Shown piece after piece: positions 4,170 to 64,000 of a stretch of 64,000 bases of DNA (positions within the stretch are counted from its first letter, which is position 1; every line of letters starts with the position of its first letter). The stretch is taken from positions 927,810-991,809 of the forward strand of contig NZ_KK073876.1 in the NCBI RefSeq assembly GCF_000585415.1, given 5' to 3'. The translations under genes were made by a program, and so were the position numbers. The notes below the pieces were generated by a model, which worked only from the letters and a program-made list of their open reading frames with translations, searched no databases and was not told the DNA's origin. The stretch is from Sphingomonas jaspsi DSM 18422. GTDB taxonomy: Bacteria > Pseudomonadota > Alphaproteobacteria > Sphingomonadales > Sphingomonadaceae.

Positions 4170-5578
4170 AAGCCATGGGAACCGAAATCGGGACGATCCA
4201 CTTTGTCGGCATCGGCGGCATCGGCATGTCCGGCATCGCCGAAGTGATGCACCACCTCGGCTACAAGGTGCAGGGCAGCGACCGCGCCGAAAGCTATGTC
4301 ACCGAAGGCCTGCGCAAGCGCGGCATCCCGGTGATGATTGGGCAAAGCGCCGACAACCTCGGCGATGCGGCGGTGCTGGTCTGCTCGACCGCGATCCGCG
4401 ACGACAATCCCGAAGTGAAGGCCGCCGCCGAACGCCGCCTGCCGCGCGTGCGCCGTGCCGAAATGCTGGCCGAACTGATGCGGATGCAATCGACCATCGC
4501 GGTCGCCGGCACTCACGGCAAGACGACCACCACTTCGCTCATTTCCGCCATGCTCGACGCCGGCGGGATCGAACCGACCGTGATCAACGGCGGCATCATC
4601 AACAGCTACGGCTCCAACGCCAAGCTGGGCGACGGCGAATGGATGGTGGTCGAAGCCGACGAAAGCGACGGCAGCTTCCTGCGCCTCGACGGCACCATCG
4701 CGGTCGTCACCAACATCGACCCCGAACATCTCGAACATTACGGCAGCTTCGACAAGGTGAAGGACGCCTTCGTCGAATTCATCGAGAATGTGCCCTTCTA
4801 CGGGCTGGCCGTGATGTGCGTCGACCACCCAGAAGTGCAGGGCGTATTGAGCCGCATCCGCGACCGCCGCGTCGTCACCTACGGCACCTCGACGCTGGCC
4901 GATGTGCGCGCCGACAATATCGTCGCCGAAAATGGCGGCAGCCGCTTCGACGTCAGCATCCTTGGCCGCGATGGTGAGCGGCGGGTGATCGAGGGCGTCT
5001 TCGTCCCCATGCCAGGCCGCCACAATGTGCTGAACGCGCTGGCTGCGGTCGCCGTCGGCCTCGAATTCAAGATGGACGATGCGACGATCGCTAACGGATT
5101 CGCCAAGTTCGGCGGTGTGAAGCGCCGCTTCACTAAGGTGGGCGAGGTCGACGGCGCGACGGTCATCGACGATTACGCCCACCACCCGGTCGAAATTCGC
5201 GCCGTGCTGTCGGCAGCGCGCGAGGCGGCGGACGAGCGTGTGATCGCGGTGGTCCAGCCGCACCGCTTCACCCGCCTGCGCGACCTGATGGACGACTTTC
5301 AGGGTGCGTTCAACGACGCCGACGTGGTGTTCGTCGCCCCGGTCTATGCCGCCGGCGAAGAGCCGATCGACGGCGTCGATGCTGAGGCGCTGGCGGAGGG
5401 GCTGCGCGCCCGCGGTCACCGCATGGTCAAAACGGTCAGCGACGCCGCCGACCTTGCCGCCTCGCTCCGCGACCTCGCCGCCGAAGGTGACATGATCGTG
5501 TGCATGGGCGCAGGCGACATCACCAAATGGGCGGCGGGGCTGGCCGACGGGATCAAGGCGGCGAGGGCGGCCAAGTGA
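4166..5578 (+). CDS. murC: UDP-N-acetylmuramate--L-alanine ligase
   Basis: MurC adds L-alanine to UDP-MurNAc, the first step of stem peptide synthesis. From the ATG at 4166 (four-base overlap with murG) the protein is 470 residues. The N-terminal nucleotide fold [17 protein letters not shown], the ATP loop [11 protein letters not shown], the EADESDGSF motif and the C-terminal [12 protein letters not shown] motif match the family. The open frame extends far upstream of 4166, but that part lies out of frame over murG and is not coding. The stop overlaps the GTG of murB. Confidence 0.96.
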
Positions 5579-6477
5579 GCGATGTCATGACTGTGCCGCC
5601 CGTTCGCGGCAGGTTGAAGCCTGATGCCCCGCTTGCGCCGCTGGTCTGGTTCAAATCCGGCGGCCATGCCCAATGGCTGTTCGAACCCGCCGACACAGAC
5701 GACCTCGTCAATTTCCTGAAGGCGCTCGACCCCTCGGTGCCGGTCATGGGCCTGGGGCTCGGCAGCAACATGATCGTCCGAGATGGCGGCGTTCCAGGTG
5801 TGGTCGTCCGCCTCGGCAAAGCTTTCGCCAAGGTCGAAAGGCTCGACGAAGTCACACTCAAGTGCGGCGGCGGGGCCAGCGGTATTCTCGTCTCCTCGAC
5901 CGCCCGCGACGCCGGCATCACGGGCGTCGAATTCCTTCGTTCCATTCCCGGCACGGTCGGCGGCTTCGTCCGCATGAACGGCGGCGCCTATGGCCGTGAG
6001 ACCTGCGACATCCTCGTCCAATGCGAGGTCGTGCTGCGCTCGGGCGAGCGGGTGATGCTGTCCAACGCCGATCTCGGCTATACCTACCGCCACAGCGAAT
6101 TGCCCGAACAGGCGATCGTCGTGTCCGCGACCTTCCGCGGCGAACCGGGTGACCCCGCCGCGATCCAGGCCGAAATGGACCGCATTGCGCAAAGCCGCGA
6201 GGAATCGCAGCCGCTGCGCAGCAAGACCGGCGGATCGACCTTCAAGAACCCGCCCGGCGACAAGGCGTGGCGACTGGTCGATGAGGCAGGCTGCCGCGGC
6301 CTTACGATGGGCGGCGCCCAAGTGTCGGAGAAGCATTGCAATTTCCTGCTCAACCTCGGTAACGCTAGCAGTGCCGATATCGAGGGGCTGGGCGAGGAAG
6401 TCCGGCGCCGCGTCAAGGAAAAGTCCAACATCTCCCTTGAATGGGAAATCCAGCGTATTGGAGTGCCGAAAGCGTGA
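5575..6477 (+). CDS. murB: UDP-N-acetylenolpyruvoylglucosamine reductase
   Basis: MurB is the FAD/NADPH enzyme that reduces UDP-GlcNAc-enolpyruvate to UDP-MurNAc. A GTG at 5575 overlaps the murC stop and gives 300 residues; an ATG at 5587 is an alternative. FAD-binding motifs are visible: [14 protein letters not shown], the [12 protein letters not shown] loop, and the GGAYGRE region. Near the C-terminus, [12 protein letters not shown] carries the family's catalytic Ser, followed by LVDEAGCRG and VSEKHCNF. The short form without a C-terminal insertion indicates type II MurB. Its stop overlaps the ddl GTG. Confidence 0.95.
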
Positions 6478-49467: not shown

Positions 49468-50172
49468 TTGACGTTCGAACGGATGGGGTTGGACGAGTTG
49501 GGCGGACTGTTGTTCCTGATTTGGGTGGCGTTCTGGATCTGGGCGCTGAAGGCGGCCTATGGGAAAATTGCGGCCACCTTCGGCAACGCGCTGTCCGGCG
49601 ATTGGGGCACCGCCTTCCGCGGGTCTGCGGGCCGCGAATGGGATCGCGATGCTTATGCCCGGTTGACGCGGGTCGACCGCACGCAGCAGAAAATCGCGCC
49701 GCCGAGCCTCGACGAGATGACCGACGACCTTGAAGCGACGCTGCGGGAAGAAGAGGCGAGCGCGGCCGAACTCACCGATGCGATCCGCCAGCGCGAGGAG
49801 AATATCCGGGTGCTGCAAGGCCACGCCGCGGACTGGCGCGAGCGGGCCGGCGTGGCGGTCGCCAAGGGCCGCGACGATCTTGCCCGGCAGGCACTGGCCG
49901 AAGCGCAGGATTGCGATGCCAAGGCCAAGGCCAGCGAGCAGGCGGTGGCCGAATTGCGCACCATCCTCGACAGTTACACCGACGAAATCGCGACGCTACG
50001 GCAGCGGCTGAACGAGGGATTGAGCCGGAAACTGGTTGCCGAGGCGCGGCTCGAACGCGCCCGTATCGGGCAGCGTGCTTCGCGCCTGTTGCAGGACGAC
50101 GGGACGGACAAGCTCGACCAGGCGATGGATCGGTTCGAACGACAAGCCGACACGGCCGAGGGGCAGTGGTAG
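49468..50172 (+). CDS. PspA/IM30-like protein, ended early by an in-frame amber codon
   Basis: The open part has 234 residues (TTG 49468; ATG 49483 is an alternative start) with a hydrophobic N-terminus (LGGLLFLIWVAFWIWAL) and then a long alpha-helical coiled coil. PspA-like features include WRERAGVAVAKGRDDLARQALAEA and LRQRLNEGLSRKLVAEARLERA. The N-terminal membrane segment is not typical of PspA. TAG at 50170 ends the ORF, yet the same frame stays open and protein-like for 56 more codons to a TGA at 50341. So it may be a recently truncated gene, one read through at UAG, or a sequencing error. Confidence 0.7.
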   Translation: MTFERMGLDELGGLLFLIWVAFWIWALKAAYGKIAATFGNALSGDWGTAFRGSAGREWDRDAYARLTRVDRTQQKIAPPSLDEMTDDLEATLREEEASAAELTDAIRQREENIRVLQGHAADWRERAGVAVAKGRDDLARQALAEAQDCDAKAKASEQAVAELRTILDSYTDEIATLRQRLNEGLSRKLVAEARLERARIGQRASRLLQDDGTDKLDQAMDRFERQADTAEGQW

Positions 50173-50343
50173 GCGCAGGCCCTGGGTGGGTTCGGGCGCA
50201 AGAAGGTCACGGCTCAAGTATCGCTGCCCGAGCCCGACGTCATCCCGCCGGACGTCACCAAGCGCTGGGACGCCGCCATCGAACGGCAACTGCAGGAATT
50301 GAAACGGCGGTCCGATCCGCCATCGGGTGCCAGCGCGGCCTGA
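50173..50343 (+). pseudogene. In-frame continuation of the PspA-like gene beyond the amber codon
   Basis: Reading on in frame from TAG 50170 gives AQALGGFGRKKVTAQV, then PEPDVIPPDVTKRWDAAIE and RQLQELKRRSDPPSGASAA, then TGA. Codons use G or C at most third positions, as in real genes here. EALGG-type segments near the C-terminus are common in PspA relatives. I see no separate start codon with a ribosome site, so it was probably the tail of the upstream gene. Confidence 0.55.
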
Positions 50344-50347
50344 CCGT

Positions 50348-50509
50348 TTATTGCGCCGCGTTGGTCGGCGTCACGTCATTGGCAGCAAGATTGTCGAGCA
50401 TCGCACCAGCCTCGTCGAGCTGGGCGTTTTCGGTGGCTGTCGGCGGCTCGGGTTGCGGCTCTCGGTTGCAGGCGGCGAGCAATAGCAAAATGGGTAAGGC
50501 GCGGATCAT
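50348..50509 (-). CDS. Small lipoprotein
   Basis: The 53 residues have a signal peptide and lipobox (MIRALPILLLLAAC, Cys 14) and a short acidic, Ala/Asn-rich mature part (EPQPEPPTATENAQLDEAG). It resembles nothing I know. It lies downstream of, and on the same strand as, the next lipoprotein gene, with a terminator between them, so it may be only weakly expressed. Confidence 0.5.
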   Translation of the reverse strand: MIRALPILLLLAACNREPQPEPPTATENAQLDEAGAMLDNLAANDVTPTNAAQ

Positions 50510-50525
50510 CGCGCAACCATCCACG

Positions 50526-50564
50526 AAAAAAGGCCGCCCGCACAAGGCGGACGGCCCTCTTTTT
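50526..50564 (-). terminator. Intrinsic terminator between two small lipoprotein genes
   Basis: A 10-bp stem with one mismatch (GGCCGCCCGC 50532-50541 with GCGGACGGCC 50547-50556, five-base loop). Read on the minus strand it is followed by six Ts (A6 at 50526-50531). A T5 on the other side means it could also act weakly on the plus strand. Confidence 0.8.
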
Positions 50565-50593
50565 CCGCATCCCCGAAGGGAGCGGAAAGCGAA

Positions 50594-50821
50594 TTACATC
50601 GCGTTGTCGGCAGCGTCAGCCGCGTTGTCGACCGCTTCAGCAGCGTTGTCGACCGCATTGCCGGCGGCGTCGAGCGCGTTGTCGACGCTTTCGCCCATGG
50701 CGTTGGCGTCGGCTTCGACGGCGTTTTCCACGCCGGCGTTTTCAACGGCGTTTTCAGTCTTCGATTCGCACGCGGCAAGGCCGAGCGCGAGGACCGCAAC
50801 GGTCAGTGCAACCTTCTTCAT
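50594..50821 (-). CDS. Small lipoprotein with Ala/Asn/Asp repeats
   Basis: The 75 residues start at ATG 50821 (MKKVALTVAVLALGLAAC, lipobox Cys 18). The mature part is almost entirely irregular repeats of the NAV-ENA / VDNA-ADA type: SVDNALDAAGNAVDNAAEAV and DNAADAADNAM. It should form a long acidic helix without aromatics, perhaps coiled coil, reminiscent of Lpp- or entericidin-like small lipoproteins. Family and function are unknown. Confidence 0.7.
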   Translation of the reverse strand: MKKVALTVAVLALGLAACESKTENAVENAGVENAVEADANAMGESVDNALDAAGNAVDNAAEAVDNAADAADNAM

Positions 50822-50993
50822 GATCGTTCCATTCCTAGCTATTGGGCCCGACCCCCCTTGCGAGGGCCCGAGCCGGCTCGGCCTGCCACAAGGGTCAGGC
50901 CAGTGCGCGGGGATATAGAGCAAAAATCGGTCACGCAATCGTCATTTGTGTCAGTCGCCATTTTTTTGCCACGAAGTCGTCGCGCAGATTGAC

Positions 50994-51017
50994 CGATATA
51001 AAGAGTTCTTTATATCG
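50994..51017. promoter_or_regulatory. Perfect 24-bp interrupted palindrome, probable ArsR-family operator
   Basis: CGATATAAAGA, GT, TCTTTATATCG: both 11-base arms match exactly. It ends 7 bases before the GTG of the ArsR/methyltransferase gene. The AT-rich dyad shape fits ArsR-family operators, including those of SahR-type regulators of methionine genes. Autoregulation and control of metF-metH is the likely role. Confidence 0.75.
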
Positions 51018-51024
51018 TTAAGCC

Positions 51025-51993
51025 GTGGTCGCAAATGTGCCTCTTTCGGGATTTTTCCACGCGCTTGCCGATCCCACGCGTCTGCGGATCATGGCGCTGT
51101 TGCGGGGAATGGAGCTTTCGGTGGGCGAATTGGCGCAGGTTCTGGGCCAAAGCCAGCCGCGCGTGTCGCGCCACGTCCGCATCCTGTCCGATTCGGGCCT
51201 GGTGGGGCGACGGAAGGAAGGCAGCTGGGTCTATCTGCAGCTGGCATCCGAAGAACGATCGCGGCCGGTGTTCGACCTGATCGATAAATGGTCCGCTGAT
51301 CGCGAACGGGCGTTGTTCGAGGCCGATGCTTCGCGCCTCCACGCCGTTCGTGCAGAGCGCGCGGAGGCGGCACGCCGCTATTTCGAAGCCCATGCCGCGA
51401 CCTGGGAGAGCATCCGCTCGCTTCATGTCGCCGATGTCGAGGTGGAGCAGGCGATCGAGCGACTGCTGGCGGACGAACCGATCGGCGCGCTGCTCGATAT
51501 CGGCACCGGGACCGGGCGCATGCTGGAACTGTTCGCCCCGCGCGCCGATACGGCGATCGGAATCGATCGTTCTTCCGAGATGTTGCGGCTGGCCCGCGTC
51601 AAGCTGCAGGAAGCCGGCATCGATGGCGCAAGCCTTCGCCAGGGCGACATGTACGCGCTGCCGCTTGGCGACCGTAGCGTCGACAGCATCATCCTGCACC
51701 AGGTCCTGCATTATGCGCAGCAGCCGGGCGCGGCGATCGCCGAGGCGTCGCGCGTGCTGCGCGGCGGCGGCCGGCTGTTGGTCATCGATTTTGCGGCGCA
51801 CGACCGTGAAGAACTGCGCGAACAGGATGCACACCTGCGGCTTGGCTTTGCCGACGAGGCGATGCGCGGCTGGTTCCAGGCTGCGGGCGTGACGCTGGAC
51901 CGGACCGAACGTCTCGAGGGCGGCGAGCTGACCGTCATCATCTGGCGCGGCCGAAAGGCCGGAATGACCGAAACCGAAAGGAAGGCCGCGTGA
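51025..51993 (+). CDS. ArsR-family regulator fused to a SAM-dependent methyltransferase domain
   Basis: The 322 residues start at GTG 51025. The N-terminal ArsR winged helix (about 8-90) has FHALADPTRLRIMALL and the recognition helix QSQPRVSRHVRILSDSGLV. The methyltransferase domain (about 150-290) has the SAM loop LLDIGTGTGRMLELFAP, IGIDRSSEML and LRGGGRLLVIDFAAH. No metal-binding Cys pair typical of ArsR/SmtB is seen, so the ligand is probably SAM or SAH. Place: first gene of a met operon, GTG-coupled to metF. This fits the SahR-type methionine regulators of proteobacteria. Confidence 0.85.
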   Translation: MVANVPLSGFFHALADPTRLRIMALLRGMELSVGELAQVLGQSQPRVSRHVRILSDSGLVGRRKEGSWVYLQLASEERSRPVFDLIDKWSADRERALFEADASRLHAVRAERAEAARRYFEAHAATWESIRSLHVADVEVEQAIERLLADEPIGALLDIGTGTGRMLELFAPRADTAIGIDRSSEMLRLARVKLQEAGIDGASLRQGDMYALPLGDRSVDSIILHQVLHYAQQPGAAIAEASRVLRGGGRLLVIDFAAHDREELREQDAHLRLGFADEAMRGWFQAAGVTLDRTERLEGGELTVIIWRGRKAGMTETERKAA

Positions 51994-52892
51994 ACCGCGA
52001 GGCGCAACAGGCGCTGGCCGATCATTGTCCGCTGTTCGCCGAAGCGCGCGGCGACATTGCGGTGAGCTTCGAATTCTTCCCGCCCAAGAGCGAGGCGATG
52101 AATGAGACGCTGTGGCGCTCGATCGAAACGCTTGCGCCGCTGAAGCCGCGCTTCGTCAGCGTGACCTACGGCGCGGGCGGATCGACGCGCGAGCGTACCC
52201 ACGCGACCGTCGCGCGGCTGGTCAAGGAGACCGATCTGACCCCCGCCGCGCATCTGACCTGCGTCGGGGCCAGCAAGGCCGAGGTGGATGAAATCGCGCA
52301 GGCCTATTGGGACGCGGGCGTGCGGCACATCGTCGCGCTGCGCGGCGACCCAAGCGAGCCGGGCGAGCCCTACGCCGCACATCCTGAGGGCTATGGCAAC
52401 GCGGCAGAACTGGTTGCCGGGCTGAAGGCGCTCCACGATTTCGATATTTCGGTCGCTGCCTATCCCGAAGTCCATCCCGACGCCGACTGTCCGGACAGCG
52501 ACATCGACAACCTCATCCGCAAGATCGATGCCGGCGCCAACCGGGCGATCACCCAATTCTTCTTTTCCGCCGACAGCTTTTTCCGCTTCCGCGACAAGGT
52601 CGCCGCGCGGGGCGTCGATATCGAGATCGTGCCGGGCATCCTGCCGGTCACCAACGTCGCACAGGTCCGCCGCTTCGCTGGCCAGTGCGGCGCGGCGATC
52701 CCGGGCTGGATGGACCATCTGTTCGAAGGGCTCGACGAACTGCCCGACGCGCGCAAGCTCGTCGCGGCGACCATCGCCGGTGAACTGTGCGGTCAGCTAT
52801 ACGCGGGCGGGGTACGCGAATTCCATTTCTACACGCTCAACCGGGCCGAACTGGCCTACGCCATTTGTCACATGCTGGGGGTGCGAGCATGA
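51990..52892 (+). CDS. metF: 5,10-Methylenetetrahydrofolate reductase
   Basis: MetF makes 5-methyl-THF, the methyl donor for MetH. GTG 51990 overlaps the regulator stop; 300 residues. Motifs: SFEFFPPKSEAMNETLW with the catalytic Glu, VSVTYGAGGSTRERTH, HLTCVGASKAEVDEIA, LRGDPSEPGEPY, and ITQFFFSADSFFRF. Its stop overlaps the first metH gene by four bases. Confidence 0.97.
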   Translation: MNREAQQALADHCPLFAEARGDIAVSFEFFPPKSEAMNETLWRSIETLAPLKPRFVSVTYGAGGSTRERTHATVARLVKETDLTPAAHLTCVGASKAEVDEIAQAYWDAGVRHIVALRGDPSEPGEPYAAHPEGYGNAAELVAGLKALHDFDISVAAYPEVHPDADCPDSDIDNLIRKIDAGANRAITQFFFSADSFFRFRDKVAARGVDIEIVPGILPVTNVAQVRRFAGQCGAAIPGWMDHLFEGLDELPDARKLVAATIAGELCGQLYAGGVREFHFYTLNRAELAYAICHMLGVRA

Positions 52893-53923
52893 GCGCCGCC
52901 GACACGCTTCGCGCCGAGGCGGCGACCCGGATCCTGGTCAAGGATGGCGCCTATGGCACGCAGATCCAGTCGTTCGGCTTGGCCGAGGCCGACTATCGCG
53001 GCACCGCTGCGCTAAACCGCGACCAGAAGGGCAATAACGACCTACTCAACCTCACCAAGCCCGAGGTCGTTCGCGCGATATGCCAGCGGTTCGCGGACGC
53101 AGGTGCCGACATTCTTGCCACCAACACGTTCAACGCCAATCGCATCAGCATGGCCGATTATGGCGCGGAGCATCTGGTGCGCGATATCAACGTCGCCGCC
53201 GCCAAACTGACCCGCGCGGTCGCCGATGCCGACGGCAAGCGCCGCTGGGTGGCGGGCGCGATGGGGCCGACCAACAAGACGCTATCGCTGTCGCCCGACG
53301 TCAATGATCCCGGCTATCGCGAGGTCGATTTCGACGGCGTGAAGTCGGTCTATCGCGAACAGGTGGACGCGCTGGTCGAGGGCGGGGTCGATTTCATCCT
53401 GATCGAAACCGTGTTCGATACGCTCAATTGCAAGGCGGCGATCATGGCGGCGCTGGAAGCCGAGGGCGATCTGGGCCGCCCGATCCCGATCATGATCTCG
53501 ATGACGCTGACCGACCTTTCGGGCCGCAACCTGTCGGGTCACACCGTCGAGGCCTTCTGGGCCAGCGTGCGTCATGCCCGTCCGCTCACCATCGGCCTCA
53601 ACTGCAGCTTCGGTGCGGAACAGTTGCGGCCGCACCTCGCGGCGCTCAGCCGCCAGGCGGATACGCTGGTCATGGCCTATCCCAATGCCGGCCTGCCCAA
53701 TGAGCTCGGCCAGTACGACGAGGCGGCCGAGGAAACCGCCGCGCAGGTGCGGGAATGGCTGGAGGAAGGGCTGGTCAACATCGTCGGCGGCTGCTGCGGC
53801 ACGACGCCCGACCATATCGCCGCGATCGCCCGCGCCGTCGGCAACCGCGAACCGCGCGCCATTCCCGCGCCCCTTGGCAAGACGTTGCTCGCGGGCCTCG
53901 AACCGATGGTTGTTGCTGCCTGA
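52889..53923 (+). CDS. metH: Methionine synthase, homocysteine-binding part (split MetH)
   Basis: The 344 residues correspond only to the N-terminal homocysteine domain of cobalamin-dependent Met[15 protein letters not shown], then the zinc Cys in [15 protein letters not shown] and the Cys pair in [12 protein letters not shown]. It ends soon after the GGCCGT motif, at the natural junction to the folate domain. The remaining domains are in a second gene 262 bases downstream. Its TGA shares a base with the start of a small intervening ORF. Confidence 0.93.
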
Positions 53924-54185
53924 TGACCGATCGCGAAATTCTGCAACGGGCGTTGGATTACGTCGACGCGCGCCTCACGCACGAAGCACCTGCGGTGCGT
54001 GAATCCTTACGCGCACAACTTCAATATTTGTCGGATCGCTTAAGCGGGGCGAATGATGGCTCCAGGCTCGGCGAGATCATTTTGGGTGTTCAGGCAGCCA
54101 AGCAATTCGATGGGGATGTTGAGACGCAGGATATCCTGTTCGCCGCCGTGGAAGTCGCGAGCCGGTTGGCAAGGCAATTCGGTTC

Positions 54186-54189
<4 letters not shown>
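53923..54189 (+). CDS. Unknown 88-residue protein between the two metH halves
   Basis: ATG 53923 overlaps the first metH stop by one base, and the TGA overlaps the second metH ATG by four bases, so it is translationally coupled on both sides. The protein looks helical: [68 protein letters not shown]. There is no Cys, no signal peptide, and no membrane segment. Codons are less GC-biased (ttg, gat, aat, ctt-type choices) than in its neighbours. I do not recognise the family. A role with MetH assembly, cobalamin or reactivation is possible only by position. Confidence 0.75.
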
Positions 54190-56786
<2,597 letters not shown>

Positions 56787-56806
56787 TGCACTGCAACAAA
56801 GCGGGG

Positions 56807-56835
56807 TTGACCTTGTCGCAGATCGTGTCACCTTA
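56807..56835 (+). promoter_or_regulatory. Candidate promoter of the aromatic locus
   Basis: TTGACC (56807-56812), 17 bases, ACCTTA (56830-56835). The -35 is good and the -10 is weak. It starts 21 bases after the metH stop. Confidence 0.35.
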
Positions 56836-56837
56836 AC

Positions 56838-56859
56838 CCTCGGTCGCTGTTGACCGAGG
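56838..56859 (+). other. Hairpin that would mask the leader ORF ribosome site
   Basis: CCTCGGTC (56838-56845), six-base loop, GACCGAGG (56852-56859), a perfect 8-bp stem. Its right arm overlaps the GAGGAG that serves as Shine-Dalgarno for the leader ORF at 56871. Confidence 0.5.
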
Positions 56860-56870
56860 AGCCTTGTCTC

Positions 56871-56948
56871 ATGAGCGAAGCATTGCTGCATCACTGCCGC
56901 TTCACTCCGGCTGCCTCGTTCGCGCCGTTTATGGGCCGGTGCGCCTGA
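56871..56948 (+). CDS. Putative 25-codon Phe-containing leader peptide
   Basis: ATG 56871 follows GAGGAG by nine bases. The peptide starts MSEALLHHCRF and contains Phe at residues 11, 17 and 20 (FTPAASFAPF), then stops at 56946 inside a terminator-like hairpin. Its place just ahead of a chorismate mutase-DAHP synthase and prephenate dehydratase pair, whose product route leads to phenylalanine, suggests transcription attenuation. Leader peptides are not conserved in sequence, so only position, Phe content and RNA structure support it. Confidence 0.5.
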   Translation: MSEALLHHCRFTPAASFAPFMGRCA

Positions 56949-56964
56949 GGGCGTACCGGGTTTT
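56936..56964 (+). terminator. Terminator-like hairpin at the end of the leader ORF (possible attenuator)
   Basis: CCGGTGCGCC (56936-56945), loop TGAG, GGCGTACCGG (56950-56959): ten pairs with one G-T wobble, followed by GTTTTC. The leader stop codon is in the loop. A ribosome stalled at Phe 20 would cover the left arm and could prevent termination. Confidence 0.5.
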
Positions 56965-57030
56965 CACTCCCTGATCCGACATTGTTAAGCGAAGCCGGCC
57001 CGTGTCCGCGCTCCGCGCCACAGGTGACCC

Positions 57031-58773
57031 ATGCGACCCAATGCGATGCTTGCGCAGTTGCGCGATACGATCGACCAGATCGACAACCAGATTCTCGACC
57101 TTGTCGAGCAGCGTCTGACCCTTTGCCGTGAAATCGCCGCTGCGAAAGACGGCGGCAACGGCCTCAAACTTTGCCCTGACCGCCAGCGACAGGTGGTCGA
57201 CCGGCTGACCGACCGGGCCAATGACGAAACCGCGCCCGCCGTGCCCCATATCTGGCGCGAAATCATGGCCCAGGCCGTGCAGGTGCAAACGCCGACGCGG
57301 ATCCTGATCGTCGGCAAGGCGGACCGCGATCGGCGGCTGAACCTAGTGCGGCAGGCCTATGGGTCGGCTGCCCCGGTCGAATGGATCGATGACGAAGCCG
57401 ATGCGCTGGCCATCGCTGCGGCGGACGATGCGATCGTGGTGCTGCCCGGCGCGATCGGCGCCGCGCTGCCCGCGGGGCTGAGCAGCTTCGACCAGCTGCG
57501 CGACGAACAAGGCGTCATCGTCGGCCGCCTGGTCGGGCGGATCGCCCAGCCGGCCGCGCCAAGTGTCGGCCGAACCCGGTCGTGGCGTCCGCACAGCTGG
57601 CGCAGCCGCCCCGCCGCCCAGCAGCCCTGTTACCCCAATATGCGAGAGCTCCACCGGGTCGAACGGCGGCTGGCGGCGCGCGCTCCGCTCGTCGAACTCA
57701 ACGACATCGATGCGCTGCGATCGTCGCTGGCAGCAGTGGCGCGGGGCGAGGCGGTGCTCGTCCAGGGCGGCGACTGCGTGGAGACGCTGCGCGAATATTC
57801 GCCCGGGAAAATCCGGCTGACGGCTGACCTGCTGTTGCAGCTTGGCGCGCAGATTGGCGGTGCGGCGGACGTGCCGGCGGTCCATGTCGCGCGGCTGGCG
57901 GGCCAATATGCCAAGCCGCGCTCCAGCCAGACCGAAATCGTAGGGGGCATGGAAATCCCCGTTTATCGCGGCGACGGCATCAACGGCGAAGATGCGGACG
58001 CGGCCGCCCGCCTGCCCGATCCGCAACGGCTGCTGGCGGTTCATGACCAGGCGATCAATACCGTCCATCACCTGTGGGATGGAAGCGCGGCGGGCAGTGA
58101 CCCCGTCTACATCAGCCACGAAGCCTTGCTGCTGAACGTCGAACAGGCCCTGACCCAATATGACGAGCGAAGCGGCCGTTGGTGGGCGGGAAGCGGCCAC
58201 ATGCTGTGGGTCGGCGAACGCACCCGTCAGCTCGATGGCGCGCATGTCGAATATGCGCGCGGAATCGCCAATCCGATCGGCCTCAAATGCGGTCCCAGCA
58301 TGAGCGAGGACGAGCTGCTGCGGCTGGTCGAGGTGCTCGATCCGGCGAACGAGGCGGGCAGGCTGGTGCTTATCCCGCGCCACGGCCGCGATCGCATCGC
58401 CGACGGACTGCCGCGCCTGATGCGGGCCATGAAGCGTGAAGGGCGCAGCGCCGTCTGGTGTATCGACCCGATGCACGGCAACGGCCGCATCGCCGACGGC
58501 CGCAAGGTCCGGCTGGTCGAGGATATCGTCGCGGAAACGCTGGCCTTCCACGACATCGCCGCGGCCGAGGGCATCTGGGCGGGCGGGGTTCATCTCGAAC
58601 TTACCGGGACCGACGTGATGGAATGCAGCGGCGGCGGTCGGCGCCGCTGGCTGGGTAGCCGCGCGCCCTACCTGTCCGGCTGCGACCCGCGGCTCAATCG
58701 CCAGCAGACCCTCGAATTGGGCGCGGCCATCGCCAATTGGCACGCACCGTCGGCCCGGCGACGGGCGGGATGA
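57031..58773 (+). CDS. Fused chorismate mutase (AroQ) and class II DAHP synthase
   Basis: The single ORF has 580 residues with a good ribosome site (aggtga) before ATG 57031. Residues 5-88 are an AroQ chorismate mutase: LRDTIDQIDNQILDLVEQR, EIAAAKDGG, DRQRQVVDRL, IWREIMAQAVQVQ; a Gln sits where E. coli has catalytic Glu52. Residues ~90-175 are an unassigned alpha/beta segment. From ~184 it is a class II DAHP synthase: WRPHSWRSRPAAQQPCY, the metal Cys in VQGGDCVE, ARLAGQYAKPRS, YRGDGING, SHEALLL, GERTRQLDGAHVEYARG, DPMHGN, CDPRLN. The part between YRGDGING and SHEALLL is about 50 residues shorter than in long class II enzymes. It catalyses the first shikimate step and the chorismate branch step. 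Its stop overlaps the next gene. Confidence 0.9.
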   Translation: MRPNAMLAQLRDTIDQIDNQILDLVEQRLTLCREIAAAKDGGNGLKLCPDRQRQVVDRLTDRANDETAPAVPHIWREIMAQAVQVQTPTRILIVGKADRDRRLNLVRQAYGSAAPVEWIDDEADALAIAAADDAIVVLPGAIGAALPAGLSSFDQLRDEQGVIVGRLVGRIAQPAAPSVGRTRSWRPHSWRSRPAAQQPCYPNMRELHRVERRLAARAPLVELNDIDALRSSLAAVARGEAVLVQGGDCVETLREYSPGKIRLTADLLLQLGAQIGGAADVPAVHVARLAGQYAKPRSSQTEIVGGMEIPVYRGDGINGEDADAAARLPDPQRLLAVHDQAINTVHHLWDGSAAGSDPVYISHEALLLNVEQALTQYDERSGRWWAGSGHMLWVGERTRQLDGAHVEYARGIANPIGLKCGPSMSEDELLRLVEVLDPANEAGRLVLIPRHGRDRIADGLPRLMRAMKREGRSAVWCIDPMHGNGRIADGRKVRLVEDIVAETLAFHDIAAAEGIWAGGVHLELTGTDVMECSGGGRRRWLGSRAPYLSGCDPRLNRQQTLELGAAIANWHAPSARRRAG

Positions 58774-59306
58774 TCGTCGCCTATCAGGGGGCGCCCGGCG
58801 CCTTCGGTCACCAGGCCGCCGGCAGCGTCGCCAATTTCGCGTCGCTGAAGGCGTTCCCAAGCTTCGCCGACGTCCTGGCGGCCGTCAAAAGAGGCGAGGC
58901 GCAGGCGGGCGTGCTGCCGGTCGTCAACAGCCGGGCCGGTCCGGTCGACGGGGTTGGCGAGCTGATCGACGACAGCGGCCTGCTCGTCCGGCAAACCATC
59001 GACCTGCCCATTCGCCTGCACCTCCTTGCGCGGCCGGGTGCGCGACTGGACGAGGTCGATACGGTGGTCAGCCACCCGATGGCGCTGCGGCAATGTGCGC
59101 GGCGGCTGGGCGAGCTGGGCGTCGCGCAGCGCGAGGCGTCGAATACCGCCGTGGCGGCACAGACGCTGGCGGACGAACGGACCGCGGTCCTTGCCTCCTC
59201 GCTGGCCGCGGAGCTTTACGGGCTCGCCATCCTCGAGGCCGACGTACAGGACGATCCCGACAATATGACGCGGTTCGCGGTCATGGTCGCGCCGACCCTC
59301 GATTAG
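58770..59306 (+). CDS. pheA: Prephenate dehydratase catalytic domain without ACT domain
   Basis: ATG 58770 overlaps the upstream stop; 178 residues. PDT motifs are YQGAPGAFGHQAA, LPVVNSRAGPVDG, the SNTAVAAQTLA segment, and the catalytic Thr in DNMTRFAVM near the C-terminus. The protein ends there, so the ACT domain that normally binds Phe is missing. It would make phenylpyruvate from the prephenate formed by the fused mutase. It may therefore be insensitive to feedback, with control moved to the leader. Confidence 0.85.
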   Translation: MIVAYQGAPGAFGHQAAGSVANFASLKAFPSFADVLAAVKRGEAQAGVLPVVNSRAGPVDGVGELIDDSGLLVRQTIDLPIRLHLLARPGARLDEVDTVVSHPMALRQCARRLGELGVAQREASNTAVAAQTLADERTAVLASSLAAELYGLAILEADVQDDPDNMTRFAVMVAPTLD

Positions 59307-59348
59307 CGCTGGCAGGCGCGCGGGTAACGCAATAGAGCAGCGCATCGA

Positions 59349-61349
59349 ATGACGACGATGCGTTTCCTCCGGCAATTGCTGCTGATGCTGGCGATGTTCG
59401 CGCCATCGATCGCGCTCGCCCAGCTCCCCCGCCAGAATGCGATTCAGCCCGAACTGGTGCTGGAGGCCCGCGGCGTCCCGGGCGGCGAGGCCGAACTGGC
59501 GATCCTGATGCATACCACGCCGGGCTGGCACGGCTATTGGCTGAACCCCGGCGATGCCGGCCTGCCGATGAGTGTCGAGTGGACGCTGCCCAAGGGCTGG
59601 AGCGTCGGCGAGCTGCGCTATCCCGTGCCAGGGCGGCTGCTGGTCGCGGGCATCGAAAATTATGTCTACGAAAAGGACTATGCGGTCCTGACGCGCCTCA
59701 ACATCCCGGCTGGCACGACGGGTAGCCAGATGGTTTCGGCCAAGCTGCGTTACCTGGCCTGCACCGACCGCGTCTGCGTGCCGGAGCAGGCCGATGTGTC
59801 GCTGAGCGTGCCGACCGGCGGGATGGTCACCCCGGACAGTCGCTTCAACGAATGGCGGCGGGCCCTGCCGCGGCCGTTGGCAAGCGAAGCGCATTTCCGG
59901 AAGAAGGGCGACCGCATCGAGATTGCGGTGCCGCTGCCGGCCAGCGTCACCATCGGCCAGCCCTATTTCTTCCCGTCGACCGACGGTCCGATCGATTATG
60001 GTGCCGAGCAGCAATATCGCCGCGACGGCGACCTGCTGATCGCCAGCCTGAAACAGCGCAAGGGCGATCCGGCCGAGCTGAAGGGCGTGCTGGCGCTGGG
60101 CGATGGCCGCGGCCTCGACATCCACGCCGTGCCCGGGCCGGTGCCGGACGGCGGCAGCGCGGTCGGGGCGATCGACGGAAATGCCATTTTCTACGCCATT
60201 CTCGGCGCGCTGGTCGGCGGGATGCTGCTCAACCTGATGCCGTGCGTCTTCCCGATCCTTGCCCTGAAGGCGTTGCACCTGGCGCGCTCTGGCGGTGACG
60301 AGGCCGCGGCGCGCAAGGATGCGCTGGCCTATGCGGCGGGTGCGGTGGTCGGGACCGGCCTGCTCGGTGCGTTGCTGCTGGCGATCCGCGCCGGGGGCAG
60401 CGCGGCGGGCTGGGCGTTCCAGCTGCAGGACCCGCGCACCATCATCGTCCTGCTGCTTCTGGCGGTCGCGATCACGCTCAACCTGCTGAGGGTCTACGAA
60501 CTGCCGGTGATGGCGGGCGAGGCCAATCCGCGCGGCAGCTTCGGCACCGGTGCGCTTGCCGCCTTCGTCGCGACGCCGTGCGCCGGACCGTTCCTGGGCG
60601 CGGCGCTGGGGACGGCGTTGCTGCTGCCCGCCGCAGGCTCGGTGCTGGTGTTCGCGGCGCTCGGGCTTGGCATTGCACTTCCCTTCGTCGCGGTGGCCTT
60701 TGTCCCGCCATTGCGGAACCGCCTGCCCAGCCCGGGCGCGTGGATGGCGCGGCTGCAGCGGTTCCTGGCGATCCCGATGGCCGCGACCGCTGCGGGATGC
60801 TTGTGGCTGCTGTATCGGCTGGGCGGGGTTCCGGCGGCGGCGGCAGGGGTGGGCGCGGTCGTGCTGCTGGGCGTCCTGCTGTGGTGGTACGGTCGTCGCC
60901 AGCATGGCGAGGCCGGCGGCTGGCTGGTGGTGGCGGCAACGCTGGCGCTGGCGGGCACCGCCGCCGCGCTCGTTCCGCAGGCGCAGCGCGGCGAGGCGCA
61001 GGTACCGCTGGGCGCAACCGCCTGGTCGGACGATGCCCTGTCGAAGGCCCGCGCGTCGGGCAAGCCGGTCTTCCTCTACTTCACCGCCGACTGGTGCCTG
61101 AGTTGCAAGGCCAATGAGGCGGCGGCGATTGAGCGCGAAGCTACGCGCGAGGCGTTCGACAAGGCCGGGGTGATCGTGATGGTCGGGGACTGGACCAATG
61201 GCGATCCTGCCATCACCCGCTTCCTCGAAACCCGGGGTCGGGCCGGGGTGCCGCTGTACCTGTGGTACGAGCCGGGCAAGGAGCCCGAGGAATTGCCCCA
61301 GATCCTCACCCCCTCGATGCTGGCGACGCGGGCTGAGCGCGCCCGCTAA
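59349..61349 (+). CDS. DsbD/ScsB-family membrane disulfide reductase
   Basis: The 666 residues have a signal peptide (LRQLLLMLAMFAPSIALA), a periplasmic N-terminal domain with the Cys pair in YLACTDRVCVPEQ, about eight membrane helices (about 275-540) with the Cys motifs LMPCVFPIL and ATPCAGPFLG, and a C-terminal thioredoxin domain with FTADWCLSCKAN. Electrons flow from cytoplasmic thioredoxin through the membrane Cys pair to periplasmic proteins. The large N-terminal domain resembles ScsB more than classical DsbD. It begins 42 bases after the dehydratase gene. Confidence 0.9.
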   Translation: MTTMRFLRQLLLMLAMFAPSIALAQLPRQNAIQPELVLEARGVPGGEAELAILMHTTPGWHGYWLNPGDAGLPMSVEWTLPKGWSVGELRYPVPGRLLVAGIENYVYEKDYAVLTRLNIPAGTTGSQMVSAKLRYLACTDRVCVPEQADVSLSVPTGGMVTPDSRFNEWRRALPRPLASEAHFRKKGDRIEIAVPLPASVTIGQPYFFPSTDGPIDYGAEQQYRRDGDLLIASLKQRKGDPAELKGVLALGDGRGLDIHAVPGPVPDGGSAVGAIDGNAIFYAILGALVGGMLLNLMPCVFPILALKALHLARSGGDEAAARKDALAYAAGAVVGTGLLGALLLAIRAGGSAAGWAFQLQDPRTIIVLLLLAVAITLNLLRVYELPVMAGEANPRGSFGTGALAAFVATPCAGPFLGAALGTALLLPAAGSVLVFAALGLGIALPFVAVAFVPPLRNRLPSPGAWMARLQRFLAIPMAATAAGCLWLLYRLGGVPAAAAGVGAVVLLGVLLWWYGRRQHGEAGGWLVVAATLALAGTAAALVPQAQRGEAQVPLGATAWSDDALSKARASGKPVFLYFTADWCLSCKANEAAAIEREATREAFDKAGVIVMVGDWTNGDPAITRFLETRGRAGVPLYLWYEPGKEPEELPQILTPSMLATRAERAR

Positions 61350-61352
61350 GCC

Positions 61353-62984
61353 CTATTCCGCTCCCCAGGCTTTTTCCCCGCCGACCCAGGTTTCGAGTAC
61401 CTTGGTTGCGGCGAGCGACTGCGGGTCGACCTTTGTCGGATCGCGGTCGACGACGATGAAGTCGGCTTGGCAACCGACGTCGAGGCAGCCCAGCGTCCGC
61501 TCCGCGAAGCCCGCATAGGCCGCACCGCGGGTGAAGCCGTGGAGCGCGCGGCCGAGGCTGACCTTTTCCTGCGGGCGCCATCCGCCGGGCGGCCGTCCGG
61601 CGGGGTCCTGCCGGCTGATCGCGGCGCTGAGGCCGGGGAAGGGGTTGGGGCTTTCGACCGGGAAGTCGCTGCCGAAGGCCAGCGGGATTCCGAGCCGTTC
61701 GACCGTGTGCCACGCATAGGCGCCGCCCAGCCGCTTCTGCCCGAGCCGAGCTTCGGCCATCATCATGTCGCTGGTCTGGTGGGTGGGCTGCATCGACGCG
61801 ATGATGCCGGCCGGTTTGAGGCGACGGATGTCGGCCGGGTCGACGATCTGGAAATGCTCGATCCGGCCGCGGCGCCTGGCGCCGAACTCAGTGGCGATCG
61901 CTTCGTAGGTCGAGATGACCTGCGCATTGGCCTTGTCGCCGATGGCGTGGATGGCGAGCTGGCCACCAGCAGCGCTGACCTCACGCGCGTCGGCAAGCAT
62001 CTGCGCATCGGTGTAGAAATGCAGGCCGCTGGTGTCCGGCTTGTCGTGGTAGGGCGCTTTCAGCCACGCGCCGCGCGAGCCCAGCGCGCCGTCGGCGTAG
62101 AGCTTGGTTCCGACCAGCCGCAGTCGTTCGCCATACATCCAGCCCGTCGCCTTGCCCCCGTTGATGCCCCGCCAGCCGGGCAGCGCGCTGGCGTAGCTGA
62201 AGATGCGGACCTTCAGCCCGCCCTTTTCGCCGAGGCGGCGGAAGGTCGCCCAATCGTCCATCGTCGAGCCCATGTCGGCAGCACCGACCAACCCGACGCG
62301 CAGCATCAGTTTCTGCGCTTCGGCCAGCGCGCGGTCGCGGGTCGCTTCGTCGGGCTGAGGCACCTTGTCGGCGATCAGCGCGGTGGCGGCGTCGACGAAC
62401 AGGCCGTTCTCGATCCGTCCGCCTGCCGGGGCTGCGGTGGCGGCGGTGACGCCCGCCGCGCGCATCGCCGCGCTGTTGGCGACGACGGCGTGACCGTCGA
62501 CCCGCTCCAGCATCACCGGCCGGTCGCCGACCACCGCGTCGAGGTCGGCGGCGGTCGGGAAGGCCTTCGTCGGCCACAATTCCTGGTTCCAGCCGCGACC
62601 AAGGATCCAGCCGGTGCCGGGATTAGCGTCGGCATAGGCCTTGAGCCGCGCCTTCAGGTCGTCGAGCGACGTCGTGCCGACGAGGTCGAGCTGGATCGCC
62701 GAAAAGCCGAGCCCCATGACATGGCCATGGGCGTCGATCAGGCCCGGCAGAACGGTCCTGCCGCCCGCATCGACCACCTTCGTATCGCCGCCCAGCTTCA
62801 GCATTTCGCCATGAAGCAGGCGCTTCACCTTGCCGTCGTCGCCGACCAGAATGCCGGTGAACCGTTCGAGCTTGCCCTTTGCATCGACCGTTACGCCGTT
62901 GGCATTGGTCACCAGCGTATCGGCAAGGGCCGGGGTGGCGGCGGTGGCAAGGAGGGCGGCGAGGGCGAGGCGCATCTTTGTCAT
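61353..62984 (-). CDS. Secreted amidohydrolase (YtcJ-like)
   Basis: The protein has 543 residues from ATG 62984 (62996 and 62975 are alternatives; no start has a strong ribosome site). A signal peptide (TKMRLALAALLATAATPALA) precedes the amidohydrolase fold: LPGLIDAHGHVMG with the HxH metal ligands, AIHAIGDKAN, RIEHFQIVD, LAFGSDFPVESPNPF, and a C-terminal DFIVVDRDP. YtcJ-like enzymes act on amide or formamide bonds of unknown substrates. The open frame extends to 63971, but that part is antisense to the next gene. Confidence 0.85.
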   Translation of the reverse strand: MTKMRLALAALLATAATPALADTLVTNANGVTVDAKGKLERFTGILVGDDGKVKRLLHGEMLKLGGDTKVVDAGGRTVLPGLIDAHGHVMGLGFSAIQLDLVGTTSLDDLKARLKAYADANPGTGWILGRGWNQELWPTKAFPTAADLDAVVGDRPVMLERVDGHAVVANSAAMRAAGVTAATAAPAGGRIENGLFVDAATALIADKVPQPDEATRDRALAEAQKLMLRVGLVGAADMGSTMDDWATFRRLGEKGGLKVRIFSYASALPGWRGINGGKATGWMYGERLRLVGTKLYADGALGSRGAWLKAPYHDKPDTSGLHFYTDAQMLADAREVSAAGGQLAIHAIGDKANAQVISTYEAIATEFGARRRGRIEHFQIVDPADIRRLKPAGIIASMQPTHQTSDMMMAEARLGQKRLGGAYAWHTVERLGIPLAFGSDFPVESPNPFPGLSAAISRQDPAGRPPGGWRPQEKVSLGRALHGFTRGAAYAGFAERTLGCLDVGCQADFIVVDRDPTKVDPQSLAATKVLETWVGGEKAWGAE

Positions 62985-63038
62985 GCGGCCCGGCATAGCA
63001 TTGTTTGGACCGCGCGGAAGAGCTAGGCCCTCAAGCCC

Positions 63039-64000
63039 ATGAGCATCACGCGTCCCACCGTCGACGACATCCGCGCCGCCGCCAAGGCGATCGAAGGCGC
63101 CGTCATCCGCACCCCGATCCACCATTGTCGCACGCTGTCCGAGATCATCGGCACCGACCTTTGGCTGAAGTTCGAGAATTTGCAGTTCACCGCCGCCTAC
63201 AAGGAACGCGGCGCGCTCAACAAATTGCTGCAGCTTAGCGCGGAAGAACGGGCCCGCGGCGTGGTCGCGGCGTCGGCAGGAAACCATGCGCAGGCGGTCG
63301 CCTATCACGGCCGGCGGCTCGGCATCCCGGTGACCATCGTCATGCCGGAATCGACGCCGACCATCAAAGTGACCCAGACGGAAGGGCATGGCGCGACCGT
63401 GGTGCTGTTCGGCGAGCGCTTCGACGACGCCTACGCCCACGCCCGCGAGCTTGAGCGGGAGAAGGGTTATGTCTTCGTCCATCCGTTCGACGACCCTGCG
63501 ATCGCGGCCGGGGCGGGGACGATCGGGCTGGAAATGCTGGAGGAGGTGCCCGAGCTTGACGTGCTGGTCGTCCCGATCGGCGGCGGCGGCCTGATCAGCG
63601 GCATCGCGACCGCGGCCAAGGCGATCAAGCCCGACATCGAAATCGTCGGGATCGAGGCCGAGCTCTACCCGTCGATGAAGAATGTCGTCGAAGGCGGGCA
63701 CGGCAAGATCGGTGGCGACACGCTGGCCGAAGGCATCGCGGTCAAGGAACCGGGGATGATGACCCGCGCGATCATCGCCGACCTCGTCGATCGCATCGAC
63801 CTGGTCAGCGAAAAGGACATCGAACATGCCGTCGCGCTGCTGGTCGGCATCGAAAAAACGGTGGTCGAGGGGGCAGGGGCGGCGGGCGTCGCGGCGCTGC
63901 TCGCCAATCCGGAACGCTACAAGGGCAAGAAGGTCGGCACCATCCTGTGCGGCGGCAATATCGACACGCACCTGCTGGCCAATGTGCTAGTGCGCGAACT
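63039..64000 (+). CDS. ilvA: Threonine ammonia-lyase (cut by window edge)
   Basis: Threonine ammonia-lyase makes 2-oxobutanoate for isoleucine, or for catabolism, with PLP. From ATG 63039 the first 320 residues are in the window, and the frame is open at the right edge. PLP-binding Lys55 is in FTAAYKERGALNKL; also ASAGNHAQAVAYH, the glycine loop VPIGGGGLISGIA, and VVEGAGAAGVAALL. Whether an ACT domain follows, which separates biosynthetic from catabolic forms, cannot be seen. It is divergent from the amidohydrolase. Confidence 0.93.
   Translation, partial: MSITRPTVDDIRAAAKAIEGAVIRTPIHHCRTLSEIIGTDLWLKFENLQFTAAYKERGALNKLLQLSAEERARGVVAASAGNHAQAVAYHGRRLGIPVTIVMPESTPTIKVTQTEGHGATVVLFGERFDDAYAHARELEREKGYVFVHPFDDPAIAAGAGTIGLEMLEEVPELDVLVVPIGGGGLISGIATAAKAIKPDIEIVGIEAELYPSMKNVVEGGHGKIGGDTLAEGIAVKEPGMMTRAIIADLVDRIDLVSEKDIEHAVALLVGIEKTVVEGAGAAGVAALLANPERYKGKKVGTILCGGNIDTHLLANVLVRE

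Follow-up and report, generated by a model that had tools for sequence, protein, structure and literature searches.

The analyzed window, a 64,000-nucleotide stretch of the genome of Sphingomonas jaspsi DSM 18422 (contig NZ_KK073876.1, positions 927,810 to 991,809), carries on its forward strand a single open frame that starts with ATG and encodes a 580-aa protein (57031..58773), in which a chorismate mutase (CM) of the AroQ type is joined, via a middle segment, to a class II DAHP synthase (DAHPS). The CM domain occupies residues 10 to 86 (57058..57288) and is recognized by the Pfam profile CM_2 with 57.6 bits at a cut-off of 27. The middle segment spans residues 88 to 180 (57292..57570), and the DAHPS domain, which has the N-terminal extension and lacks the alpha2a/2b segment, spans residues 185 to 580 (57583..58770); it matches DAHP_synth_2 (Pfam accession number PF01474) with 439.2 bits (cut-off, 27) and the NCBIfam model TIGR01358 with 436.8 bits, which is below the 614.7-bit cut-off of that family. 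The fusion gene is followed on the same strand by the gene for a 178-aa prephenate dehydratase (PDT; 58770..59306; Pfam PDT, 151.4 bits), the stop codon of the former and the ATG start codon of the latter overlapping in the sequence ATGA (58770..58773); an overlap of the same length is seen in another locus, L048, at 4194-4197. The initial annotation had proposed an uninterrupted 580-codon ORF combining an AroQ mutase, a middle segment of ~90 residues and a class II DAHPS, coupled by a stop/start overlap to a dehydratase, and this description holds: the domain search of the two ORFs returned CM_2, DAHP_synth_2, and PDT, and no ACT. The dehydratase ORF had been listed from a TTG codon at 58737, for which the ATG at 58770 should be substituted as the likely start.

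The same arrangement is found in numerous other proteins. Of the 120 homologs listed in the sequence search (4,951 proteins matched in all among 7,994 scored candidates), 118, including the window's own, have both domains in a single frame, so the stop or frameshift between mutase and synthase that could have undermined the initial annotation is absent. All named organisms among the listed homologs are sphingomonads or alphaproteobacterial metagenome-assembled genomes, and 25 aligned homologs are 44 to 66% identical to the window protein. Residues Arg11, Arg28, Lys39, Arg51, and Gln86 of the CM domain, which we take to be the AroQ active-site residues, are identical in all 118 fusions, the window's included. 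Together with the CM_2 match, they mark the N-terminal domain as an AroQ chorismate mutase, with a putative mutase activity. A plasmid origin of the gene was considered and rejected, as none of the 106 matching plasmid records had a single locus covering 80% of the query.

In the DAHPS domain, Cys249, Arg297, Lys419, Arg450, His482, Glu523, and Asp552, presumably the metal- and substrate-binding sites of class II enzymes, are invariant in the 26 fusions compared, and a structure search with the model of the whole fusion produced a list filled by DAHPS. The alpha2a/2b segment falls into a gap in the alignment to the structure 5uxm: the corresponding region comprises 17 residues in the window protein, 11 to 23 residues in 48 of the 118 fusions and 35 residues in 70 of them. 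The window enzyme is thus not of the long, Trp-regulated kind that carries this segment. By identity, it is also not closest to the short PA1901/PhzC-type subgroup, since it is 48 to 49% identical to the Trp-regulated PA2843 enzyme (5uxm/5uxo) and 42% identical to PA1901 (6bmc). The PA1901 subgroup is described in PMC6435475 as unregulated, phenazine-linked, and devoid of the alpha2a/2b segment. The second, unfused class II DAHPS of the S. jaspsi genome (L054:4192-7660; contig C1, at about 280-284 kb), encoded upstream of aroA and aroC, has no alpha2a/2b segment either.

The PDT encoded downstream retains Ser101, His102, Asn165, the catalytic Thr167, and Phe169, which are kept in all 123 aligned sequences, the window's own among them. 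It ends nine residues past the T-R-F motif, as opposed to 101 to 110 residues in 20 canonical PDT-ACT proteins hand-picked from a survey of the order, and no ACT domain was found by Pfam in 58770-59306. Thus, this is a PDT without the C-terminal ACT domain of the canonical enzymes, as the initial annotation had it. Similarly, each of the 21 PDTs read from the loci compared stops 5 to 14 residues past the motif, three of these distances having been counted by eye.

The middle segment is predicted to form a beta-alpha-beta-alpha-beta-beta-beta structure followed by a disordered link; in the structure model, the ten-residue blocks from residue 91 to residue 170 have pLDDT values of 86 to 92, except for one at 78, and residues 171 to 180 have a value of 46. 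Taken alone (approximately residues 88 to 180), this segment had no Pfam match up to an E value of 1 and matched the NCBIfam model PRK06034.1-1 (NF004695) with an E value of 0.0017 (17.8 bits). With the CM domain included, the match to the same model covers residues 7 to 144 and scores 70.9 bits, without reaching the family cut-off of 311. The similarity to these chorismate mutases (NF004695 to NF004698) therefore extends past the CM domain into the start of their C-terminal domain, and in most of the rows displayed the profile A2 likewise reaches into the middle segment. With a profile of 12 N-termini, 385 alphaproteobacterial genomes were scanned, of which 235 had a match at an E value of ≤1e-8. 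The PRK06034-type proteins differ from the fusion in standing alone and in having a distal part that the fusion lacks: 28 of the 29 best loci (L090 to L118) end 232 to 306 aa after the start of the CM match, the frame in L091 continuing for 515 aa. Judging from these matches, the N-terminus of the fusion is a re-used alphaproteobacterial CM of the PRK06034 type.

The C-terminal part of the PRK06034-type proteins may itself be what remains, after decay, of a PDT lobe and an ACT domain. A profile of this part, built from 32 sequences (four of them from genomes of the order), gave collinear hhalign matches to canonical PDT-ACT proteins, with scores of 29.6 for the ACT part and 27.9 for the N-lobe. 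The respective nulls were ≤21.5 in 150 column-permuted profiles, 23.4 for the reversed profile, 15.1 to 16.7 for two DAHPS decoys, and ≤21.8 in 100 reversed-rotated targets; the hhalign probabilities themselves, 10 to 17%, are low in absolute terms. Five PRK06034-type proteins had no ACT or PDT match in Pfam. The fusion middle segment gave nothing against the ACT-less PDTs in hhalign (probability, 0.1 to 0.3) and scored 21.9 against canonical PDT-ACT, which is at the null level of the alphaproteobacterial profile. An hmmsearch of PDB with nine sequences yielded three chains, none significant, led by 3exc (E value, 0.71), with the prephenate dehydratase 2qmx second (E value, 1.5). From these comparisons, a decayed P-protein is plausible; the window middle segment would then represent the lobe-like part, the ACT-like part being gone.

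Alternatively, the middle segment could be a working Phe-binding regulatory domain that substitutes for ACT. Its Gly111, Gly169, and Arg170 are present in all 118 fusions and Arg107 in 116 of them, and it is found in every one of the 14 genomes of the genus that encode a PDT, all of these PDTs being ACT-less. However, the same domain is widespread in Alphaproteobacteria, including four genomes of the order (G003, G008, G010, and G017) in which the PDT lies in a frame of 287 to 291 aa, and the fusion is devoid of the C-terminal ACT-like part; such a role appears less likely than not. As to the origin of the module, a tentative scenario, to which we would give slightly less than even chances, is that the PRK06034-type CM is a decayed CM-PDT-ACT P-protein, of which the CM and one PDT lobe would have remained and been covalently re-joined in sphingomonads, possibly repeatedly, to class II DAHPS or to an ACT-stripped PDT; feedback would have passed from allosteric control of the enzymes to a Phe/Tyr-sensing leader of a new class, with Tyr made by hydroxylation of Phe.

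Matches that reach well into the middle segment were detected in 12 of the 396 genomes of the order, of which seven belong to one family (f1) and five lie outside it; the genome G334, with a match only up to position 115 and an internal stop, was left out of this count. Within the genus of the window, the CM-middle module is present in 15 of 71 genomes. A scan of genome contigs with a single peptide pattern retrieved five loci, including one from Sphingomonas daechungensis. The module comes in several architectures. The CM-middle-DAHPS fusion is intact in the window and in L008, L010, L048, L065, L066, L069, L070, and L071 and has broken frames in L009/L068 and L067, the break in L009 (S. daechungensis KACC 18115) lying between the CM domain and the middle segment, at about 6250-6300. 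The CM-middle and DAHPS parts are encoded by separate neighboring genes in L043; in L044 to L046, the CM-middle gene adjoins that of an ACT-less PDT, and in L047, L072, and L073, CM, middle, and PDT form a single chain. By tblastn, the fusion in L009/L068, L065, L066, and L067 precedes an aroA-PDT-aroC-aroB operon, as do the side-by-side CM-middle and DAHPS genes in L043, and in L074 and L075 the CM-middle gene is found in such an operon without a DAHPS; the identities of the AroA, AroC, and AroB genes were checked on L009. The window and L008 share the gene order MetF-MetH-fusion-PDT-DsbD-like.

In a DAHPS tree of 41 rows, the fused copies form two groups, with stand-alone copies from the genus between them. 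Given the starred branches, the fused state must have changed at least twice in this tree, either through two separate fusions or through a fusion plus a fission. In the CM-middle tree, the row of L068 contains out-of-frame residues past the frame break, and its long branch is to be ignored. The genus as a whole can be seen as a natural series, from genomes without PDT to those with CM-middle plus PDT, CM-middle-PDT, and CM-middle-DAHPS plus PDT, that allows both the fusion and the loss of a pathway to be watched.

These architectures also bear on the possibility that the CM domain works less as a mutase than as a sensor through which chorismate or prephenate would act allosterically on the DAHPS. 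This is the known logic of fusions of CM with type I-beta DAHPS, and the S. jaspsi genome has a separate CM. In contrast, the presumed active-site residues are retained in each of the 118 fusions, and elsewhere the module occurs without a DAHPS, beside a PDT or fused to it, which fits a catalytic role; a mainly sensory function appears doubtful. The separate small CM of S. jaspsi is encoded in L055 (C1:1180361-1180594).

The region separating the methionine synthase gene from the fusion contains a leader ORF of 25 codons (56871..56948, forward strand), which starts with ATG, contains three Phe codons, and encodes MSEALLHHCRFTPAASFAPFMGRCA before its stop codon. Its last residues overlap a terminator-like hairpin (56936..56959, same strand) of 10 base pairs with the loop TGAG, which holds the stop codon of the leader; the hairpin is followed by GTTTT. 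A single hairpin was found in 56700-57100, where shuffled sequences have 0.3 on average (standard deviation, 0.6), so that taken by itself it is unremarkable. Nevertheless, in 18 of the 22 upstream regions compared, whatever the downstream architecture, a leader ORF with potentially regulatory codons precedes a hairpin and the motif F-x(0-2)-[GSC]R[YFHC][ASTE] is found at the same place; this motif was composed after inspection of the sequences and has one extra match elsewhere in L067. Of the 22 regions, only those of L049, L050, L074, and L075 had no detectable leader, the latter two being from loci with the operon. The motif Phe is encoded by TTT in all 18 leaders. Of the 198 codons that precede it, 44 are aromatic, against 19.9 ± 3.8 in shuffles, none of 5,000 being as high, although the rows are related and the shuffle overstates their independence.

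A leader model built from eight loci recovered the other ten, with E values from 5e-8 to 0.094. Applied to 44 sources (485 kb), it found, beyond the 18, one duplicate locus and eight opposite-strand echoes. Among the 396 genomes, seven matches scored at least 50 bits, corresponding to the seven module-bearing genomes of the family f1, and the next one scored 31.7 bits; all seven were training rows, and 42 of the 396 genomes had some match with an E value of ≤0.01. The weaker matches in G048 and G078 (31.7 and 30.4 bits) were taken as chance, as by eye they are inside a methionyl-tRNA synthetase-like frame. Pairing in the hairpin is preserved in 156 of 156 cells in 17 sequences aligned to the structure, with one two-sided change; such changes are few, and shuffles do as well in 39 of 500 cases by this measure and in 19 of 500 by the covariation score. 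A run of T residues near the hairpin was seen by eye in the window, L009, L065, and L066, i.e., in four of the 18 copies, and is absent close by in the other 14, which suggests that most copies do not stop transcription by intrinsic termination. Rfam had no match at gathering thresholds in 50000-64000 and none up to an E value of 10 in 56780-57060.

The conserved leader rich in Phe and Tyr codons, together with the hairpin, fits ribosome-mediated attenuation and represents a candidate Phe/Tyr attenuator. Under a shortage of charged tRNA-Phe, translation would halt at the Phe codons ahead of the hairpin, with the ribosome covering the 5' arm of the hairpin and allowing transcription to continue; when Phe is plentiful, the leader would be translated to its end and the hairpin could form. 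Control of the operon would then most likely sit in the leader, in place of an enzyme-level ACT feedback that has been dropped. The initial annotation had suggested that the route may be unregulated, with no visible allosteric domain. As far as recognized protein domains go, the absence of such a domain is borne out by the lack of both ACT and alpha2a/2b, but the term unregulated overlooks the putative leader and hairpin at 56871-56959.

The S. jaspsi genome (G000), a single contig of 2.55 Mb and 99.99% complete, has one PDT match, that at 58770-59306, two class II DAHPS, and two CM matches, so that the fused domains need not be the sole sources of flux. The second, ACT-containing PheA that the initial annotation had suggested looking for is not among the matches in this genome, the one PDT match being ACT-less. 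No TyrA (PF02153) was found over the cut-off in this genome; the best match, to profile positions 2 to 75, scored 25.5 bits against a cut-off of 26.5 (E value, 1.3e-5), and being 1 bit short it might represent a divergent TyrA. The genome has one phenylalanine hydroxylase (PF00351; 145.9 bits). With this enzyme present and no TyrA over the cut-off, Tyr is probably made from Phe, a route documented for Dyella japonica (PMC7311316), and CM would accordingly no longer stand at a Phe/Tyr branch. Of the 71 genomes of the genus, 65 encode phenylalanine hydroxylase and 37 a class II DAHPS; TyrA is over the cut-off in four, with any match at an E value of ≤0.001 in 12. In G438, G399, G404, G398, G422, and G423, the hydroxylase match and the aroB end of the operon are no more than about 2 kb apart. 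PDT is found in 14 of the 71 genomes. Each of these belongs to the 15 that have the CM-middle module, and the only module-bearing genome without PDT is 70% complete. A PDT match is absent from the other 57 genomes and from 41 of the 53 good-quality ones; many members of the genus may have lost the Phe route, and Phe auxotrophy is perhaps widespread.

We consider it probable that the fusion and the PDT constitute the bacterium's own Phe operon, serving primary Phe synthesis under the control of the leader, with Tyr derived from Phe. The fusion would catalyze the first step of the shikimate pathway, by its DAHPS domain, and the conversion of chorismate to prephenate, by its CM domain; the ACT-less PDT would convert prephenate to phenylpyruvate, which transamination would turn into Phe. 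The finding is real and unusual, yet what it serves is most likely ordinary primary metabolism, in an uncommon construction. By contrast, the dedicated, unregulated route feeding a phenylpyruvate-derived product that had been suggested initially appears improbable. The PDT does lack ACT, another DAHPS is encoded elsewhere in the genome, and the DAHPS domain is without alpha2a/2b, like the unregulated phenazine-linked PA1901 subgroup as presented in PMC6435475. However, this PDT is the only one of the genome, several relatives have it in an aro operon, and its presence in the genus tracks that of the CM-middle module, in 14 genomes of 14. In addition, the hydroxylase is present and TyrA is under the cut-off, the window neighbors that were checked encode MetF, MetH, and a DsbD-like protein, the leader with its Phe and Tyr codons would fit Phe sensing, and by identity the DAHPS is nearer to PA2843 than to PA1901. 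An origin of the fusion by misassembly or a frame error, to which the broken frame recorded for S. daechungensis KACC 18115 lends some color, can be dismissed, given that 118 of the 120 listed proteins are fused and that an intact 612-aa cluster (P0041) carries the S. daechungensis name.

The locus resembles several known systems. Class II DAHPS of Mycobacterium and Corynebacterium unite the same two activities by binding an AroQ-delta CM non-covalently, and the window DAHPS domain aligns with 2w1a, 5ckx, and 5hud from these bacteria over 385 to 389 residues with 37 to 39% identity. Here, the link is covalent, a middle segment lies between the domains, the CM belongs to the PRK06034 type, and alpha2a/2b is absent. 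Fusions of CM with type I-beta DAHPS are known in Bacillus and also in Porphyromonas; they likewise have an AroQ CM covalently bound to a DAHPS, whereas the partner in the window is class II, with no sign of type I, and there is an extra middle segment. The E. coli P-protein PheA has the architecture CM-PDT-ACT, so that the two activities of the Phe route, CM and PDT, are produced together there as well. In the window, the PDT is separate and ACT-less, and the CM-middle-PDT fusions of L047, L072, and L073 are also without ACT. Similarly, pheA has a Phe leader, a ribosome-mediated attenuator in which, as in the window, a short ORF with regulatory codons and a hairpin lie upstream of biosynthetic genes. 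The window leader differs in mixing Phe and Tyr codons, in having no Rfam match at an E value of 10, and in that 14 of its 18 copies have no T-run close by.

To the initial annotation, a covalent class II fusion appeared undescribed, and the literature searches agree with it: covering the enzymes, ACT-less PDTs, the Tyr route, the leader, and auxotrophy, with most subscription papers outside their scope, they found no covalent fusion of class II DAHPS with CM and no leader like this one. Novelty thus lies in three elements: a class II DAHPS as the covalent partner, the re-use of the CM module, and the leader. As the covalent counterpart of the non-covalent DAHPS/CM complexes, the fusion would offer a natural single chain for studying cross-talk between the first step and the branch step, and the leader suggests how a Phe operon may drop ACT feedback yet stay controlled.

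The methionine synthase upstream of the leader seems to be split (52787-56786), with an upstream ORF that by eye resembles the homocysteine-binding part and a downstream one (54186-56786) that matches metH from profile position 340 onward. An 87-aa ORF between the two parts had no NCBIfam match at an E value of ≤1e-20. Just past the methionine synthase gene, at 56838-56859, there is a second hairpin with the arms CCTCGGTC and GACCGAGG, which is possibly the terminator of that gene.
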